NCBI GenBank assembly: GCA_016219965.1
Contig: JACRJM010000015.1
Location: forward strand, 343,857 to 407,856
DNA length: 64,000 nucleotides
Source of the DNA: Candidatus Schekmanbacteria bacterium
Lineage (GTDB): Bacteria; Schekmanbacteria; GWA2-38-11; J061
Direction: 5' to 3'
Positions 4,391-55,078 of the stretch are shown one piece after another. Made by a program: the position numbers and the translations under genes. Each line of letters begins with the position of its first letter. The first letter of the stretch is position 1. The notes under the pieces are model-generated. The model did no database searches. It saw nothing but the letters and a program-made list of their open reading frames with translations, and was not told the DNA's origin.

Positions 4391-6634
4391 CTATTTTGTC
4401 TTCATCACGAATACGCCGTCCCAGTCGTCGGGAGGAGGGGATTGCATGTAAGCTGTACAGCGCTCTATATAAACCGATGACGGACCATCATCACTGAATT
4501 GTTTTTTTATTTCTTTGAATTTATTTGCTGCTTCCTGCCACTGCCTGTTTCTGTATAAATTGATTCCTTCCTCAAACATCTTGGCCTTAGTAATAAGTTT
4601 TGAATCGTCGTCGCTTTCTCCCATAAGTTCGTAGATTTTTACAGGTTTCAATTTTCCTTTTACTCTCACAAGGTCTATTTCCCTTGTGATGAGCTTATCT
4701 GGAAGCTCGCTCTTTGTAAACTCACTTATTATAATGTTTGTCCCGTATGTTTTGTTAAGTCCTTCAAGGCGCGATGCAAGATTTACCGCGTCACCCATGA
4801 CCGTATAGTCGAATCGCCTGTCTGAGCCCATGTTGCCGACAACGACATCCCCTGTGTTTATCCCTATGCCGATGTTGACAGGAGGCTTTCCTTCGGCGTC
4901 CCATTTTACCCTGAGCTTATGGAGTTTCTCAATCATTCCAAGCGCTGAAAGGCTGGATTTAAGGGCATGGTCTTTCATTTCAACAGGCGCCCCCCAGAAA
5001 GCCATAATTGCGTCTCCTATGAATTTATCCAGTGTCCCGCTGTTCACCTCTGTTATTACATCCGTCATTTCACTGAAGTATTCATTGAGAAGCTGGACAA
5101 GTTGTGCAGGAGTAAGAGATTCTGAGAGAGTGGTAAATCCTCTTATGTCTGAAAATAATATGGAGAGCGTTTTTTCTTCGCCCCCCAGTTTAAGCTTAGA
5201 GGGGTCTTTTGTGATGGCATTTACAACAGACGGGCTTAAATACTGCTGGAAAGCTCCCTTGATTTTTCTCTTCTCACGTTCTTCTGTGAGAAAGCGGTAA
5301 GAGGTGATGGAGATATAAAGAACGAATACGGTGAGCATTGGGAACACCATATTTACCCAGAGGCTTTGTGAAATAAAAAGAATTATCCCTGTTGCAATCA
5401 CAAGCGCCAGCATTGCCGCCGCAAAAAAAGTGCTTTTCATTGGCGCCATCTTTGGAAGGACAAAAGAAAGCATTGTCCCTATTATCAATACTGCAAAGAT
5501 ATCGTAGATGAAAGAAAGCTTCGGATGATAAAGGAACCTCTGGTCTATGAAATTTTTTACAAGCGTTGCCTGTTTTTCAACACCGAACATAATACCGTAG
5601 GGAGTGACCCACTTGTCTCCTAATCCGGTTGCTGCGTAACCAATCAGAACTGCCCTGCCTTTAAGAAGGGAAGGGGATATCTTTCCTTCAAGGATATCTG
5701 AGCATGAGTAATAGCGGAATGTATTCTGTGGTCCGTAATAATTTATAAGATAACTTCCCCTCTCATCTGTTGGGATTAAAAATTTCCCGGTTTCAATGCC
5801 GTTGCCAAAATTTATTTTTATATTTTCAAAAGGAATATTCATATAGAGCCGGGCAACTTCAAATGAAAGAGGCGGATAATATGAATCGCCATATTTTTCA
5901 ATCATCCACTCTTTCCTTACCACACCATCTATGTCAGTGCTCACAGCTTCTGCATTACCTGCTGATGCCGTTGCGTCTAAAAATATATTGAGCGGAATTA
6001 AAGCCTGCCCGGCAGTTATGGGTTTTAGTTCTTCTTTTAGCCCTGCCAAATCGCTTTCAAGGAAATAGGCAAATCTTTTTAGGTTCTCCAAAAGGTCATC
6101 AGAGGGTTTGCGTTGGTTTTCGCTACGTTGCGAATCTTGCGCACTCATTGACAATGCTATCACGGTGTTTCCCGCATTTCTGAAACTCTCTGCGAGAATC
6201 ACGTCACTGTCAAAAGCTTTTATGGCGTTTTCAATTTCACCTTTCAGTGCCGTGAGGTTATCTCCGTTTTTGTCTTTCTCAATTTTATTTAGAACATCAC
6301 TTAGGACTGCTTTTTCAGAGGAAACCTGAGACTCGCTGAAGATTATATCAAGTCCTATTGTCTTTGCCCCTCCCTTGCTCAATATATCTACGACCTTTGC
6401 AACTTGCTTTCTGTCCCAGGGCCATCGTCCCACTTGTTCAATCGATCTGTCATCTATAGCTACTATTACTACATTGTCTCCGGGATTTTGTATACCGCTT
6501 AAGAGAAAGCGATAGTCAAGGCTCATAAGTTCCAGTTTTTCGAGAACTGAAATCTCTCCCTTGGGACCATGGAAGGCAAGAAGGATGATAAATATAAGGG
6601 CAGTGCTTATAATGCCTATTTTTTTTGCTGACAT
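4391..6634 (-). CDS. CHASE2-domain class III adenylate/guanylate cyclase
   Basis: A 747-residue membrane receptor. Order: N-terminal membrane helix (about 6-22), extracytoplasmic CHASE2 sensor (about 28-370; note VVIVAIDDRSIEQVGRWPW), three close membrane helices (about 375-455), class III cyclase domain (about 475-660), and a C-terminal TPR-like helical pair. Catalytic residues are present: metal-binding Asp in FSDIRGF and in FIGDAIMAFWG, Lys in DKFIGD and Asp in FDYTVMGD (the pair usual in adenylate cyclases), and Asn/Arg in NLASRLEG. It should therefore be an active, probably cAMP-making, enzyme driven by an external signal. It neighbours the NHL/FecR/adhesin block and may sense envelope or surface state (inference). 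Confidence 0.9.
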   Translation of the reverse strand: MSAKKIGIISTALIFIILLAFHGPKGEISVLEKLELMSLDYRFLLSGIQNPGDNVVIVAIDDRSIEQVGRWPWDRKQVAKVVDILSKGGAKTIGLDIIFSESQVSSEKAVLSDVLNKIEKDKNGDNLTALKGEIENAIKAFDSDVILAESFRNAGNTVIALSMSAQDSQRSENQRKPSDDLLENLKRFAYFLESDLAGLKEELKPITAGQALIPLNIFLDATASAGNAEAVSTDIDGVVRKEWMIEKYGDSYYPPLSFEVARLYMNIPFENIKINFGNGIETGKFLIPTDERGSYLINYYGPQNTFRYYSCSDILEGKISPSLLKGRAVLIGYAATGLGDKWVTPYGIMFGVEKQATLVKNFIDQRFLYHPKLSFIYDIFAVLIIGTMLSFVLPKMAPMKSTFFAAAMLALVIATGIILFISQSLWVNMVFPMLTVFVLYISITSYRFLTEEREKRKIKGAFQQYLSPSVVNAITKDPSKLKLGGEEKTLSILFSDIRGFTTLSESLTPAQLVQLLNEYFSEMTDVITEVNSGTLDKFIGDAIMAFWGAPVEMKDHALKSSLSALGMIEKLHKLRVKWDAEGKPPVNIGIGINTGDVVVGNMGSDRRFDYTVMGDAVNLASRLEGLNKTYGTNIIISEFTKSELPDKLITREIDLVRVKGKLKPVKIYELMGESDDDSKLITKAKMFEEGINLYRNRQWQEAANKFKEIKKQFSDDGPSSVYIERCTAYMQSPPPDDWDGVFVMKTK

Positions 6635-6689
6635 GACTCAATCATATTTCGACTTGCACTGCATTGTCAAACAGGACGTGAGAGAGGTG

Positions 6690-9600
6690 CTATTTCACGG
6701 TGACCCTTTTAGATGTCACTGCGATGTTATTTCCTTCGTTATACTCGTTCACTGAATTGTCTGCGTCCCAGAAAACCTTCAGATAATATTTCCCTTTTGC
6801 TAAAGATTTTGGGACTTTCCAGTTATAAGTAACAGTTTTTTGTGTATCAGTTGCGAGGCCTGATAATACTTTTTCTTTAATCAATATGTCTCCGTCAAAA
6901 GAGCCGCTGTTATTGGACGAATAATAAAGCCTCACTGTAAAAGCAGAGGCATCCTGACCACCGATGTTCTTTCCCTGTGTTGATAACTTGAATGTTTTCC
7001 CTTTTTTTAAGGCAAGAGGATATCTTATGTTTTTTACACGGATGTCCGGAGCCGAGCTGTCGAGTTTGACGTATGATCCGCTGAAGGTTATGTTTCCTTC
7101 AGGTTCAAGTGTCTTCCCCTCGGAAGGGGGCTTTTTATATCCTTCGACCTGTCCGTAGGTAATGGTGTAATTACCTGAAGGGGCATCCTGCTGCGACCAT
7201 AGCTCACCGGAGCCTTCATAATCAGCGGGGCCTGTAATGCTGAAAGTAGATGTTATGATATTCGTTGTAACTGTAATGACTCCTATAGTGTCTTTCTCAA
7301 TAAATGTTGCTGTACAGGTTGTATCAGAGTCCATTGTCACTGATATGATTTCGTCTTCGCCAGTTACATCTCCGCTCCAGCCTGCAAACTTTGAGTCTGC
7401 TTCAGGCGTTGCCGTAAGAGTAATAACGACCGTCTGCGTGTAAACATGCGAACAGGTTTCACCGCAGGTTATCACTGAATCAGAGCTTGTGACGGTTCCG
7501 CTTCCTGCACCTTCTGTAGAAATGGTAAGAGTTACCGGATCAGGATCTACGGTTGTCTGTACTGTGGCTGTGTTGTTTGAAATATCAGGATCAGATTCTG
7601 CTGAGAATGCTGTTACAGTGTTAAGGAGTTTTCCTTTTTCAGTTGTTGAAATAGTAATTGTAATTGCTGCTTCTTCACCGCTTTCAAGCGTTGCAAGGTC
7701 GCATGTCACATTTACTCCATCAGCGCTGCATGTACCTTTATCAGAGCTTACGGTTCCGAGTGTGATCGTGACCGGAAGGTTATCGGTGAAGCTTACTTCT
7801 GTTGCTGGGTCAGGGCCAATGTTGGCGACAGAGACAGTATATGTTAGTACATCATCAATCATTACTGAGCTAGCAGATGCGTCAATCTCAGTTATAAGGT
7901 CTGCAACAAGGAGACCATAAGGCACGCGCTCGAACTTCTGTATCCTGTGGTTGTATGTATCTGCTACATAAGTATTCTTGGCAGAATCAACAGTGACTCC
8001 GTAAGGATAGTAAAGCTCCCCGTCGCCAAATCCATAACTTCCAACTGTAGCTGTAGAGATAGAATTACCGTTCTTATCAAATTTCTGGATGCGGTGGTTC
8101 GAAGTGTCTGCGACATAAATATAACCCGATGCATCAACTGAGAGTCCTATAGGAGAGCTGAATTTCCCGGTGCTTGTTCCATTACTTCCCCATTTGCCAA
8201 GATAAGTTCCTGATGAATTGAATTTTTCTATCCGGTTATTGCCTGTGTCTGCTACATAGATATTACCTGATGAGTCAATTGCAATTCCCTGAGGATAAGA
8301 AAATTGGCTGTTGCCTGTTCCCGCGCTTCCAATTTTTGAAAGATAAGTACCACTGGAGTCAAATTTCTGGACTCGGTGATTGTATGTATCTGCTACATAA
8401 ATATTCCCAGAGCTGTCTGCTGCAAGTGCTCCGGGATAGCTCAACTGTCCGTTCTCAGAGCCGTATGTCCCGAACTTTATAAGAAAGGTACCGGCTGAAT
8501 CAAATTTTTCTATACGATGGTTGTTTGTGTCAGCCACATAAATATTGCCGCTAGAGTCGACTGCTATACCCTGTGGCTGTGTGAACTCACCGTCGCCTGA
8601 CCCGGAACTGCCAAACTTTGAATCAAAGACTCCGGCTGATGTAAATTTCTCTACACGATTGTTCCGTGTATCAGCGACGTATATATTCCCGTTGCCATCG
8701 GTAGTTATTCCTTTTGGCTCCTGAAACTGCCCGTCATCTTCTCCTGTTGCTGCCCATTTTGCAGTGAGAATTCCGTTTGAATCGAATTTTTGAATTTTAT
8801 GGCTCCATGTAAATGCTGAGGTTGAACCGCCGGAAGCCACATAGATGTTCCCTGTGCCTGCAACTGCCACAGCATTGGTGTTTATGAACTCGCCATCACC
8901 TGAGCCATTTGTTCCGAACTTGGAAATAAAAACTCCGCTTGAGTCAAATTTCTGAATACGGCTGTTGTCTGTGTCAGCTACATAAACATTATTGGAGGAG
9001 TCCACTGATATGGATTGAGGAGAATCAAACTGGCTGTCCCCTGTGCCACTTGTTCCCCATTGGCTTGCATAATTGCCGACTGAATCAAGTTTCTGAATCC
9101 TGTTATTGCCTGTGTCAGCTATGTAACTGTTTCCTGAGGAATCAACTGCAATTGCCTGAGGTTTGTTGAACTGTCCATCACCTGAACCTGAAGTTCCAGT
9201 CTTTCCCAAAAATGTTCCTGATGAAGTGAACTGCTGGATGCGGTTGTTGTCTGTGTCAGCCACATAAACATACCCCGATGTATCTACTGCCACCCCCTGA
9301 GGGTTGTTAAATTGCCCATCTCCTGTTCCGGCGGTTCCCCATTTCTTAATGAAGTTGCCGTTGGAATCGAATTTCTGGATACGGTTATTCCCTGTGTCTG
9401 CTATATAGACATACCCTGATGAATCAACCGCCGCTGCGGAGGGGAGCTTGAACTGTCCGTCGCTTGTGCCATAGGAACCCCATGAGGTAATGAAATTCCC
9501 GTCTGAATCAAACCTGATTATAGTGCTTCCATCCCTGTCAACGACAAAGACGTTCTCTGATGAGTCCGTAGCAATACCCTGAACATAGCTGAAATACCAG

Positions 9601-50526: not shown

Positions 50527-51915
50527 ATGAAAAAACTTTGGGGCGGGAGGTTCGAGGCTGCTACTGACAGGATTGTCGATGAATTCACTGCATCGATAGA
50601 CTTTGATAAGCGCCTTTACAGGCATGATATAGAAGGGAACATCGCCCACTGCAAAATGCTTCAAAAAGTTGGAATAATTTCAGCTTCCGAATGCAGAAAG
50701 ATTACCTCCACGCTCAAAGAGATAGAAAACGAGATAGCATCAGGCAAGGCGAAGTTTACTCCTGAAGTTGAAGATATCCATATGTACATTGAAGGAAAAC
50801 TTATCGAAAAAGCAGGAGAAACAGGGAAGAAACTCCATACAGGAAGAAGCCGCAACGACCAGGTTGCCCTTGATACAAGAATGTATCTTAAGGATGAGAT
50901 AAAGGAGATATTTACTCTCCTTAAGCAATTCATCAGCGAGATTGCAGCAGCAGCTGAAAAACAGATCGATGTTGTAATGCCGGGCTATACGCATATGCAG
51001 CATGCGCAGTCTGTTCTACTTTCACATCACCTTCATGCTTATACGGAGATGCTGCTGCGCGATATCGGAAGGCTTAAACAATGTTATAAGAGCGCAGACG
51101 TAATGCCCCTTGGCGCTGGAGCGCTTGCAGGTTCAAGTTTTCCGCTTGACCGGGAATATGTTGCGAAGCTTTTGGGTTTTTCATCTGTTACGGCAAACAG
51201 CATGGATACAGTGAGTGATAGGGACTATCAACTGGAATTTATTTTCTTTTCTTCCCTGCTCTTTATGCATTTAAGCAGAATGTGTGAGGAATTAATACTC
51301 TGGAACGGGACAGAATTTTCCTTTGTTGAGCTTCCCGATGAATTTACCACAGGAAGCAGCATGATGCCGCAGAAGAAGAATCCGGATGTACTCGAACTTG
51401 TCCGCGGCAAGACCGGAAGAGTTTACGGAAGTCTTATATCTGTTCTTACGCTTCTTAAGGCACAACCTCTTACCTATAACAGAGATATGCAGGAGGACAA
51501 GGAAGCTCTCTTTGATACAGCAGATACAGTAAAGAAGTCTCTTTTAGTGCTTGGGAAATTCTTTGGTAAGATTAAGTTCAACCGTGCCAGACTCGAGTAC
51601 GAGGCAGGAGAGGGGTTCATGGAAGCAACAGATTTGGCTGACTACCTTGTTATGAAGTTAGTTCCTTTCAGGCAGGCACATGAAGTTTCCGGAAAGATTG
51701 TCATCTATTGTTTGAATAAGAAAAAGAAACTGAGAGATCTTTCCATGAATGAACTTATGAGTTTTCATAAGGGATTTTGCGAAGACGTATTGGGAATACT
51801 TGATCCAAAAAGCTCTGTAAAAAGAAAAAAAACTTCCGGGAGTACATCTCCTGCGGAAGTTAAAAAGAACATTAAGCGTCTATATGGTATCCTCGGGAAA
51901 CTCAAACTTTCCTGA
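50527..51915 (+). CDS. argH: Argininosuccinate lyase
   Basis: A 462-residue fumarase-superfamily lyase that splits argininosuccinate to arginine and fumarate. Evidence: N-terminal KKLWGGRFE, EDIHMYIE, TGRSRNDQVALD, YTHMQHAQSV (catalytic His), and the superfamily signature GSSMMPQKKNPD whose first Ser is catalytic. Length is typical. It is followed after 39 bp by an LptM-like lipoprotein and lysA, a gene order also seen in proteobacteria. Confidence 0.97.
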   Translation: MKKLWGGRFEAATDRIVDEFTASIDFDKRLYRHDIEGNIAHCKMLQKVGIISASECRKITSTLKEIENEIASGKAKFTPEVEDIHMYIEGKLIEKAGETGKKLHTGRSRNDQVALDTRMYLKDEIKEIFTLLKQFISEIAAAAEKQIDVVMPGYTHMQHAQSVLLSHHLHAYTEMLLRDIGRLKQCYKSADVMPLGAGALAGSSFPLDREYVAKLLGFSSVTANSMDTVSDRDYQLEFIFFSSLLFMHLSRMCEELILWNGTEFSFVELPDEFTTGSSMMPQKKNPDVLELVRGKTGRVYGSLISVLTLLKAQPLTYNRDMQEDKEALFDTADTVKKSLLVLGKFFGKIKFNRARLEYEAGEGFMEATDLADYLVMKLVPFRQAHEVSGKIVIYCLNKKKKLRDLSMNELMSFHKGFCEDVLGILDPKSSVKRKKTSGSTSPAEVKKNIKRLYGILGKLKLS

Positions 51916-51954
51916 TTTGTGAAAAGTTTTTTAATTAATATATCCGGTTTGCTA

Positions 51955-52953
51955 ATGAAAAAGATTTTGTTCCCCATATTGCTTGTTGCTGTGCTCACAA
52001 TTCTGTCATGCGGCAAAAAAGCACCTCCTAAACTTTTCGATACAGGAAAGATTTCAAAAATGACTGTTAATAAAGCGGAGGTATCTGAAGGTAAAATAAG
52101 CTTTTCATGGGAGCCTGTTGTGGATGTCGTAGAGCCGGCTTATTATGACATTTACCGAAGTGCCGGGGATGAAAAATTCACTAAAATATCTACGCTTGAT
52201 TCAGGCAAGAAGGATAGCGAGGGTTCCTATGTATTTAGTGAGACTTCGGGTATGAAAGAAGGAGAATGGTACCACTATATCGTGGCATCAATGGATAAGG
52301 ATGGTAATATCATAAGGATAAGCGATACGATTGATATTTATTATTCCGTTGAACCGTCGCCACCTTCAGACGTTAAGGCTGTCCTGGTAAATAATTATGT
52401 ACGTCTTATGTGGTTGTCGCCTACGACCAAGGTTGATGGTACACCTATTAAAGAAGTTACTGGTTATAATGTTTACAGGAAAAAAGAAGATCAAAAATAT
52501 TTCAGACCTATTAATGCAACTCTTATAACCAAGAACAGCTTCATTGATATGTCCGTTCAAAAGGATAATACTTATTATTATATTGTCAGGGCGGTTGATA
52601 ATTATATTCCTCCATGGCATGAAAGCCGCACGTCAGATGTAGCAGAGGCGGATTTTCCTGATCTCATACCTCCGGAACCGCCAGCCTTGAAGGTTATTGG
52701 AGCTGCCGGAAGAATAAGCCTGAGCTGGCAGAAGAGCAGTTCTGACGATGTGCTTGGATATAAAATATACAGAAGCACTTCAGCGGAGGGAGAGTACGAA
52801 AATCTCAATCAGGATATAGCCTCCAATGAATATTATGATGATATGAATGTTGAAATCGGGAAGGAATATTTCTATAAAATAAAGGCAGTTGACAATTCAA
52901 AGAGGAAAAATGAAAGTGCTTTTTCAAATATCGTATCGGATAAGGCTTTTTAG
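51955..52953 (+). CDS. LptM-like lipoprotein with fibronectin type III domains
   Basis: A 332-residue predicted lipoprotein. The start is ATG 51955 (MKKILFP); a GTG twelve codons earlier would bury the signal peptide. Lipobox TILSC puts the lipid Cys at about residue 19, followed directly by GKKAPPK. That CGxKxP pattern recalls the N-terminus of LptM/YifL, whose gene also precedes lysA in proteobacteria. The remaining sequence forms three FN3-like beta-sandwiches (about 40-140, 145-235, 240-330) with repeated AVDNYIPPW- and AVDNSKRK-type endings. Probably outer-membrane anchored in the periplasm; a link to LPS assembly is inference. Confidence 0.8.
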   Translation: MKKILFPILLVAVLTILSCGKKAPPKLFDTGKISKMTVNKAEVSEGKISFSWEPVVDVVEPAYYDIYRSAGDEKFTKISTLDSGKKDSEGSYVFSETSGMKEGEWYHYIVASMDKDGNIIRISDTIDIYYSVEPSPPSDVKAVLVNNYVRLMWLSPTTKVDGTPIKEVTGYNVYRKKEDQKYFRPINATLITKNSFIDMSVQKDNTYYYIVRAVDNYIPPWHESRTSDVAEADFPDLIPPEPPALKVIGAAGRISLSWQKSSSDDVLGYKIYRSTSAEGEYENLNQDIASNEYYDDMNVEIGKEYFYKIKAVDNSKRKNESAFSNIVSDKAF

Positions 52954-52967
52954 GGGAGATTTTGATA

Positions 52968-54215
52968 ATGAATGAATTCAAGTACCGCAAAGGCAAACTT
53001 TATTGTGAAGATGTTCCTGTTGAGGAAATAGCAGAAAAGGTCGGAACACCATTTTATCTCTACAGCAAAGAAACAATCCTCAGACATTATAAGGCAATTG
53101 ATGGGGCATTTAAAAAAATAAAGCATATTACCTGCTTTGCCATGAAAGCCAATTCGAATCTCTCCATTCTTTCGCTGCTTGCAGGGTGCGGGGCCGGAGC
53201 TGATATCGTGTCGGGCGGTGAACTTTACAGGGCAAGAAAGGCAGGAGTACCGGCAAATAAAATACTTTTTTCAGGGGTAGGAAAGTCAACTGGAGAAATT
53301 GAATATGCGCTTCGCTCAGGGATTCTGATGTTCAATATCGAGTCATCTGAAGAGGCTGAGGTCATAAATGATATAGCAGGAAGACTCAGGAAGAAAGCTC
53401 CGGTGTCTTTCAGGATAAATCCTGATGTTGATCCAAAAACTCATCCATATATTTCAACGGGTCTTAAGAAAAACAAGTTTGGGATAAACATCAATGATGC
53501 TGTTGCTGAATACAGGAAAGCGAAGATAATGAAGTGGCTTGATGTTGTAGGCATTCATTACCATATAGGATCACAGCTTACTTCGGTTTCACCATTTGTT
53601 GATTCATTGAAAAGGACAAAAGTCCTCCTTCAAAACCTGAGAAAAGAAGGAATAGATATAAGGTATTTTGACATGGGTGGAGGTCTTGGAATAACATATA
53701 AGGATGAAGAGCCGCCGCATCCGAAAAATTATGCTGCAGCATTGATGCCGTATCTTGCTGATCTTGGCTGCACCGTTCTTCTGGAGCCAGGAAGGGTGAT
53801 AGTCGGTAATGCCGGTATACTGGTTACAAAGGTTATGTTTACAAAGACAAATGGTATAAAGAATTTTGTAATAGTAGATGCAGGAATGAATGACCTTGTA
53901 AGGCCAAGTCTTTACGGCGCGTATCAGGAAATAGTTCCTGTGAAAAAGGTTAAATCTGAAAAGATTGAGGCTGATGTTGTAGGTCCGATATGCGAGTCAG
54001 GAGATTTTCTTGCAAAGGACAGGATGATAGCTCCGGCCAAAAGAGGAGATCTGCTGGCTGTAATGAGTGCAGGTGCTTATGGTTTCACCATGAGTTCAAA
54101 TTATAATTCAAGGCCGCGTGTCGCTGAGGTTTTGGTAGATAAGAAGAAGGTTTCAGTGGTTAGAAAGAGAGAGAACTATGGTGACCTTGTAAGGGGAGAG
54201 AAGGTTTCAGATTAA
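52968..54215 (+). CDS. lysA: Diaminopimelate decarboxylase
   Basis: A 415-residue PLP enzyme that makes L-lysine from meso-diaminopimelate. PLP Lys in CFAMKANSN (about residue 63), HYHIGSQ, the phosphate-binding GGGLGITY and the C-terminal CESGDFLAKDR and MSAGAYGFTMSSNYN. Start set at ATG 52968, nine bases after GGGGAG; the upstream in-frame TTG is too close to that site. Heads the lysine part of the operon. Confidence 0.96.
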   Translation: MNEFKYRKGKLYCEDVPVEEIAEKVGTPFYLYSKETILRHYKAIDGAFKKIKHITCFAMKANSNLSILSLLAGCGAGADIVSGGELYRARKAGVPANKILFSGVGKSTGEIEYALRSGILMFNIESSEEAEVINDIAGRLRKKAPVSFRINPDVDPKTHPYISTGLKKNKFGININDAVAEYRKAKIMKWLDVVGIHYHIGSQLTSVSPFVDSLKRTKVLLQNLRKEGIDIRYFDMGGGLGITYKDEEPPHPKNYAAALMPYLADLGCTVLLEPGRVIVGNAGILVTKVMFTKTNGIKNFVIVDAGMNDLVRPSLYGAYQEIVPVKKVKSEKIEADVVGPICESGDFLAKDRMIAPAKRGDLLAVMSAGAYGFTMSSNYNSRPRVAEVLVDKKKVSVVRKRENYGDLVRGEKVSD

Positions 54216-54244: not shown

Positions 54245-55078
54245 ATGACAGACAGAATAAAATTTACAAAGATGACAGGAAGCGGGAATGATTTCATATT
54301 GATAGATATTATGAGCCAGAAACTTCCTGCGAACGATCTTTCAGCTTTTACGAGAAAGATCTGCCACAGATCTCTTTCTCTTGGAGCAGATGGCGCAATT
54401 TTCTTAGAACACTCAGACAAGGCTGATTTTAAGTGGCGCTTTTATAATTCTGACGGAAGTGAAGCTGAAATGTGCGGTAACGGCAGCAGGTGTGCGGCAA
54501 GGTTTGCGTTTATTAATAAGATTGCAGGCTCCCGTGTGACCTTTGAAACAAAAGCAGGCATAATAAAGGCTGAAGTAAATGGCTCTGAAGTAAAGACAGA
54601 GCTTACAAAGCCAAAAAATTTGAAGAAGGATATACATGTCAATGTTTTTGGAAATGATATGTCTGTCCAGTTTATTAATACTGGTGTTCCACATGCTGTG
54701 ATATTCATTGATGATATTGAGAAATGTGAGGTTGAAAAAATAGGACGCGAAATCAGATTCCACCAGGAATTTAAACCGGCGGGGACAAACGTAAATTTTG
54801 TAAAACCTATTGATGGAAATATGATAAGAGTGAGGACTTATGAAAGAGGAGTTGAAGGGGAAACACTGGCTTGCGGAACCGGCTCTGTTGCTTCTTCGAT
54901 ATTTCACAGTATAAATACAGGTGCAAGTTCGCCAATTTCAGTTAAAACACAGGGTGGCGAGATACTTAAAGTTTTTGTTGTAAGAAATGGTGATAGCATA
55001 AGCAATGTTTCCCTTCAGGGGATGACTCGCATAATTTGTGATGGAGAACTTGACAGGGAATCTTGGGAGTATTTATGA
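54245..55078 (+). CDS. dapF: Diaminopimelate epimerase
   Basis: A 277-residue cofactor-free epimerase converting LL- to meso-diaminopimelate, needed for lysine and peptidoglycan. N-terminal FTKMTGSGNDFILID; the catalytic Cys pair is in EMCGNGSRCAARF and TLACGTGSVASS. Length typical. Spaced 29 bp from lysA and 14 bp from the favoured dapA start. Confidence 0.96.
   Translation: MTDRIKFTKMTGSGNDFILIDIMSQKLPANDLSAFTRKICHRSLSLGADGAIFLEHSDKADFKWRFYNSDGSEAEMCGNGSRCAARFAFINKIAGSRVTFETKAGIIKAEVNGSEVKTELTKPKNLKKDIHVNVFGNDMSVQFINTGVPHAVIFIDDIEKCEVEKIGREIRFHQEFKPAGTNVNFVKPIDGNMIRVRTYERGVEGETLACGTGSVASSIFHSINTGASSPISVKTQGGEILKVFVVRNGDSISNVSLQGMTRIICDGELDRESWEYL

Follow-up and report, generated by a model that had tools for sequence, protein, structure and literature searches.

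A lipoprotein with FN3-like domains and an LptM-like N-terminus encoded between argH and lysA in Candidatus Schekmanbacteria

Introduction

The junction of argH and lysA in Candidatus Schekmanbacteria raises the question of what a lipoprotein is doing in the middle of a metabolic operon, and whether its N-terminus links it to LptM. LptM (YifL) is likewise a lipoprotein with a C-G-x-K-x-P start at the lysA/dapF locus, and its gene immediately precedes dapF in E. coli K-12. The part of LptM behind the motif is reported to be generally shorter than 70 residues and LptM-like genes to be virtually absent outside Proteobacteria (PMC10567701), and residues 20-29 of E. coli LptM are the part resolved inside LptD (PMC12644819). 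The latter source states that E. coli LptM without residues 44-67 still co-purifies, that LptM without residues 22-30 is strongly impaired, and that the N-terminal part suffices for retention in LptD (PMC12644819). Within open-licence PMC papers, we found neither an FN3 lipoprotein at argH-lysA nor an FN3 form of LptM. Here we analysed a 64,000-nucleotide stretch (contig positions 343857-407856, hereafter the window) together with related loci, and we weighed four readings of the protein.

Results and discussion

The lipoprotein gene and its locus

The lipoprotein gene occupies positions 51955-52953 of the forward strand and its translation, MKKILFPILLVAVLTILS followed by CGKKAPPKLF..., comprises 332 aa. 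The mechanical open reading frame starts at GTG 51919; we preferred ATG 51955, which gives a usual signal peptide. This peptide has 18 residues and ends in a lipobox (LTILS before the cysteine; 51955-52008, forward strand), as read from the translation and by a lipobox rule script, and it is followed by Cys19 and a mature protein of 314 residues. After Cys19 the mature protein reads GKKAPPKLFDTGK. The lipid-bearing cysteine and the LptM-like tail CGKKAPPKLF are encoded at 52009-52038 (forward strand) and were identified by a pattern scan, the lipobox rule and the consensus over 35 loci. The original prediction had placed a lipoprotein with GKKAPPK after its lipid cysteine at the argH-lysA junction, and this is what the gene encodes.

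Upstream lies argH (argininosuccinate lyase; 50527-51915, forward strand; Pfam Lyase_1 1.9e-72, ASL_C2 2.4e-24), which ends 39 bases before the lipoprotein gene. Downstream, the ATG of lysA (diaminopimelate decarboxylase; 52962-54215, forward strand; Pfam Orn_Arg_deC_N 4e-60) follows after 14 bases; its frame is listed from TTG 52962 and the in-frame ATG stands at 52968. The next gene is dapF (54245-55078, forward strand). One strand carries argF, argG, argH, the lipoprotein gene, lysA, dapF, dapA and dapB, and a search of 51700-53100 for terminator-like sites was negative. The assignments of argH, lysA, dapF, dapA and dapB come from Pfam, while argF and argG are what we take two further genes to be by recognition of their sequences, without a family search. 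NCBIfam gave no family name for the lipoprotein.

Among 60 genomes, full-length relatives with 39-43% identity were found in three of the same family or order, and the orthologues in these three nearest relatives also sit at the argH-lysA locus. A scan with four close sequences found, as one locus, that of Candidatus Schekmanbacteria bacterium GWA2_38_11, with the order argF-argG-argH-lipoprotein-lysA-dapF-dapA. Weaker relatives from unrelated families (19-28% identity over the alignment) lie between argH and lysA or adjoin one of them, with the exception of G037, which adjoins neither in the stretch read. The idea of a single chimeric gene was dropped because relatives occur in many genomes. 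Separately, an FN3 lipoprotein starting CGVKQPPIPP adjoins argH in locus L039 of genome G043 (6491-7462, forward strand) and in L092, with lysA on another contig.

The FN3-like arm

About 300 residues of FN3-like domains had been predicted behind the tail, and three such domains were recovered, with approximate boundaries and all on the forward strand. The first spans about residues 34-131 (52054-52347), where a two-sequence AlphaFold model places strands at 34-130. The second spans about residues 132-233 (52348-52653) and is drawn from the same model and from Pfam Ig/FN3 matches at 134-223 below the cut-off. The third, at about residues 236-332 (52660-52950), is likewise modelled and was matched by phmmer to a fibronectin FN3 domain at 238-316. 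All Pfam FN3/Ig matches of the window protein are weak and sub-threshold, and several relatives exceed the cut-off. The phmmer search matched titin and fibronectin FN3 chains with E values of 1.2e-5 and weaker.

A single-sequence model was unusable (pLDDT 37.5). The two-sequence model contains three beta-sandwich stretches at moderate quality (mean pLDDT 62.1), and its best Foldseek match is a titin tandem of three FN3 domains, 8bnq (E 1.3e-12, TM only 0.35). As modelled, the arm has the FN3 fold, the same as that of the fibronectin and titin tandems (Pfam PF00041); unlike those, the window protein is bacterial, lipid-anchored and encoded at a fixed metabolic locus.

Survey of lysA loci

To obtain a broad sample that did not depend on the lipoprotein itself, we searched for lysA in 290 genomes. 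A lysA match at E<=1e-60 was present in 162 of them and 132 loci were read upstream; loci outside the 132 had weaker lysA matches, ended with the contig or were unfetched. A lipoprotein starting C-G-x-[K/R/M] lies directly upstream of lysA at 35 of the 132 loci (G089 included, which is cut at the locus edge). The prediction had pictured one enlarged protein, and what emerged instead is a widespread form. FN3 was detected in 18 of the 35 lipoproteins, 17 of which match the whole arm of the window protein and one of which (G153) has a single FN3 domain. The remaining 17 have no detected FN3 and range from 18 to 163 residues in mature length; at 18 residues, the mature products of G140 and G277 are hardly more than the tail.

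Both forms agree over the first ten residues, C-G-x-K-[G/A]-P-P-x-P-P. Lysine stands at +4 in 16/18 FN3 forms and 15/17 short forms, and proline at +10 in 14/18 and 11/17; the survey pattern had fixed the +4 residue and a nearby proline and left positions +5, +9 and +10 open, and the two further scans that follow did not depend on it. A profile built from the 18 motif-bearing FN3 forms, with the motif cut off, picked 19 open reading frames in the 132 loci, and 18 of these have CGx[KR], the other (G100) being cut at the edge. A motif-blind lipobox scan returned 24 lipoproteins upstream of lysA, 20 of them with CGx[KR], and 12 elsewhere in the loci, none of them with this start. The short forms of G285 (CGNKGPLY) and G148 (CGQKGPLY) resemble E. 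coli LptM (CGLKGPLY).

Two individual loci were recorded on the way. Before lysA in G100 (L057), a frame open over 481 residues extends to the locus edge and scores E 1e-64 against the FN3 profile. In G026 (L073, 2489-2968, forward strand) a lipoprotein of 127 mature residues starting CGKREWP precedes lysA and has no significant FN3 match; it has perhaps decayed or carries a different domain.

Relation to LptM

The window protein has the glycine at +2, lysine at +4 and proline at +6 of LptM in a lipoprotein (CGKKAP), and its gene lies at lysA/dapF, so the motif and position said to be common to both proteins are indeed shared. Its genome also encodes LptD (PF04453, E 1e-10) and LptE (1.1e-14), with two LptF/G matches; the candidate explanation that the FN3 protein replaces LptE was dropped because LptE is present. 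E. coli LptM has 67 aa and no FN3 domain, whereas the mature window protein runs to 314 residues, carries three FN3-like domains and gave no match to Pfam PF13627 (LptM_cons, curated cut-off 27.3 bits); nothing in the window's genome exceeded that cut-off. By Pfam's cut-off and by size, the window protein is no member of LptM.

Partial recognition by LptM_cons was seen in other members. The FN3 form L045, from a genome of the window's order, reached 24.3 bits (E=2.7e-5), below the cut-off, and E. coli LptM itself 33.9 bits. At E<=0.1 the model matched 11 of 35 proteins (E. coli LptM and 34 survey proteins). At E<=10, seven of ten FN3 forms, a set that includes L009 and L039, neither of them upstream of lysA, were matched at the lipobox with E 2.7e-5 to 0.27, all below the cut-off, and three were unmatched; six of ten short proteins or controls were matched, and two, G285 and E. 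coli LptM, passed the cut-off.

We propose, at about even chances of being right, that the window lipoprotein is an LptM equivalent whose tail docks at the lateral gate of LptD and whose FN3 arm lies in the periplasm. It would be an outer-membrane lipoprotein that does the job of LptM in a bulkier form. The lipid-bearing cysteine and the next ten or so residues (C-G-K-K-A-P-P-K) would occupy the LptD lateral gate, as in E. coli LptM, and the docked tail would help LptD fold and open, while the three FN3 domains would form an arm beside the LptD beta-taco. We infer the outer-membrane location, the docking and the role of the arm alike, and by analogy the window protein probably works like LptM. 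The tail is most readily understood as the functional part, since the N-terminus of E. coli LptM suffices in LptD and since the tail is conserved at the locus and survives alone.

For the arm, a similar part to that of LptY, a second accessory lipoprotein of LptDE, could be conceived by analogy. LptY (YedD) is described as an outer-membrane lipoprotein whose folded domain, a lipocalin-like eight-stranded barrel, binds the periplasmic LptD beta-taco (PMC12644819); this fold differs from the FN3 fold of the window protein.

The tail among other lipoproteins

Binding of partners and spacing of other domains are common roles of FN3 domains, and MexA and other unrelated lipoproteins begin in a similar, CGK-like way. 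The tail could accordingly be a generic anchor or a sorting and linker segment, being small, basic and proline-rich, and the protein a periplasmic FN3 lipoprotein of an ordinary kind, perhaps one that binds glycans or peptidoglycan, whose gene is a passenger in the arginine-lysine operon. The shortness and proline content of the tail fit this reading, which we nevertheless think somewhat unlikely in view of where the motif occurs. A codon pattern for C-G-x-K-x-P (the K form only; CGxRxP falls outside) has 17 sites in the whole 3.6-Mb genome, and only the one at argH-lysA follows a lipobox in frame; the tail is therefore not due to chance, and its K form is unique among the lipobox proteins of the genome. 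In 20 genomes taken as motif-free at lysA (G159 and G270 of which are unread there, and G089 of which was later found to have a motif lipoprotein), [GA]-C-G-x-K-x-P occurs at 59 sites, and the 50 sites read yielded one closely related pair of possible lipoproteins. A mere anchor for FN3 domains would also not be expected to persist alone, as this tail does.

That pair, L246 (G253) and L247 (G116), comes from two related genomes and consists of a small putative lipoprotein with the tail CGLKDPDRAVQ..., 34 residues from the cysteine. It may be a further LptM-like protein, encoded elsewhere than at lysA. Neither G253 nor G116 has an LptD of the E. coli-like type.

LptD in the genome and across the sample

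The LptD of the window's genome (G000:C3 298444-301056; sequence taken from L035, 6445-9057) was compared with that of E. coli. At the position of Glu275, the presumed partner of LptM Lys23, it has Asn286, which counts against docking and agrees with a tail that only anchors. Cys173 and Cys725 have counterparts (Cys186 and Cys821), Cys31 and Cys724 have none, and an extra Cys136 stands 50 residues before Cys186. Other LptDs with a cysteine at this spacing from their Cys173 counterpart come mostly from genomes that encode the FN3 form. An oxidative role for E. coli LptM is described in PMC10567701. Since Cys31 and Cys724 have no equivalents, the disulfide exchange assisted by LptM in E. coli cannot be the same here, and with the full cysteine set missing the oxidative role would need to differ.

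Across the sample, PF04453 detected LptD in 25/35 genomes with the lipoprotein and 24/97 without; when PF19838 was added the difference became smaller (29/35 against 44/97). LptE followed a weaker trend, 29/34 with and 57/98 without the lipoprotein (G089 counted among the latter). For the comparison of LptD sequences we used 22 of the 25 motif genomes with a PF04453 match, four more via PF19838, and 17 of the 24 non-motif genomes with PF04453, G159 and G270 being excluded for their unread lysA loci. The barrel start and strand region touched by LptM is E. coli-like in 25/26 genomes with the lipoprotein and 6/17 without (p 2e-5), by a criterion picked after the alignment was viewed and with a p-value that ignores relatedness. 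Pro246 (18/26 against 2/17) and Glu275 (19/26 against 3/17) are distributed similarly, again ignoring relatedness. Independent-pair tests gave no effect, with eight supported pairs for LptD presence and one for LptD subtype, too few for power. The claim of an LptD link independent of ancestry was dropped, as these tests did not support it, and the loss of co-occurrence under this control is a further point for a generic anchor.

It is also conceivable, and in our judgement improbable, that some other outer-membrane machine, be it BAM, Lol or a partner yet to be found, recognises the tail, with E. coli LptM as one specialised user of an older signal. Such a machine would suit the six of 35 motif genomes that have no LptD match with PF04453 or PF19838, but the G229 genome among them is 68% complete and the LptD models are of incomplete sensitivity. 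The E. coli-like region in nearly all motif genomes read speaks for LptD itself.

Short and FN3 forms at the same locus

On a quick LysA tree, the distribution of FN3 and short forms among the 35 loci needs at least 11 changes between them by an unrooted count, and one supported group holds the FN3 forms of G024 and G171 together with the 18-residue forms of G140 and G277. Separate recruitment of the two forms before lysA, with tails alike by chance or common sorting rules, is improbable: beyond the tail there is no evident similarity, only one of 11 short-set proteins scored (G153) passed the FN3 profile inclusion threshold and the tree gives no direction of change, but the forms share their locus, agree at positions free of the search pattern (proline at +10) and switch repeatedly, and G153 with its one FN3 domain is an intermediate.

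The original prediction further suggested that the protein is LptM-derived or LptM-equivalent. Membership by Pfam did not stand, as described above. What makes a lineage link plausible is that forms with and without FN3 share an N-terminal consensus and alternate at the locus, and that LptM_cons partly recognises the FN3 forms. The wording "enlarged with FN3" presumes a direction that an unrooted count does not give, so that the arm may be either an addition or an original part and LptM could be a shortened form. A bolder version, which we regard as unlikely, is that an old and widely held family of outer-membrane lipoproteins, seen at 35 of the 132 lysA loci, has been trimmed down to LptM, its full form combining an LptM-like gate plug with a folded periplasmic arm that braces the LptD beta-taco, the two jobs being split in E. 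coli between LptM and LptY.

Conclusion

Compared with LptM as described so far, the protein encoded at the argH-lysA junction may be a version of it that is both bulkier and more widely distributed, as its tail is found before lysA in diverse bacteria, whether or not FN3 domains follow. The LPS exporter is an antibiotic target. If these lipoproteins are counterparts of LptM, an accessory subunit of the exporter would be far more widespread than reported, and the tail alone, with 18 mature residues in two genomes, would mark the minimal working part. The gene before lysA would then be a simple genomic handle for exporter accessories in uncultured phyla.
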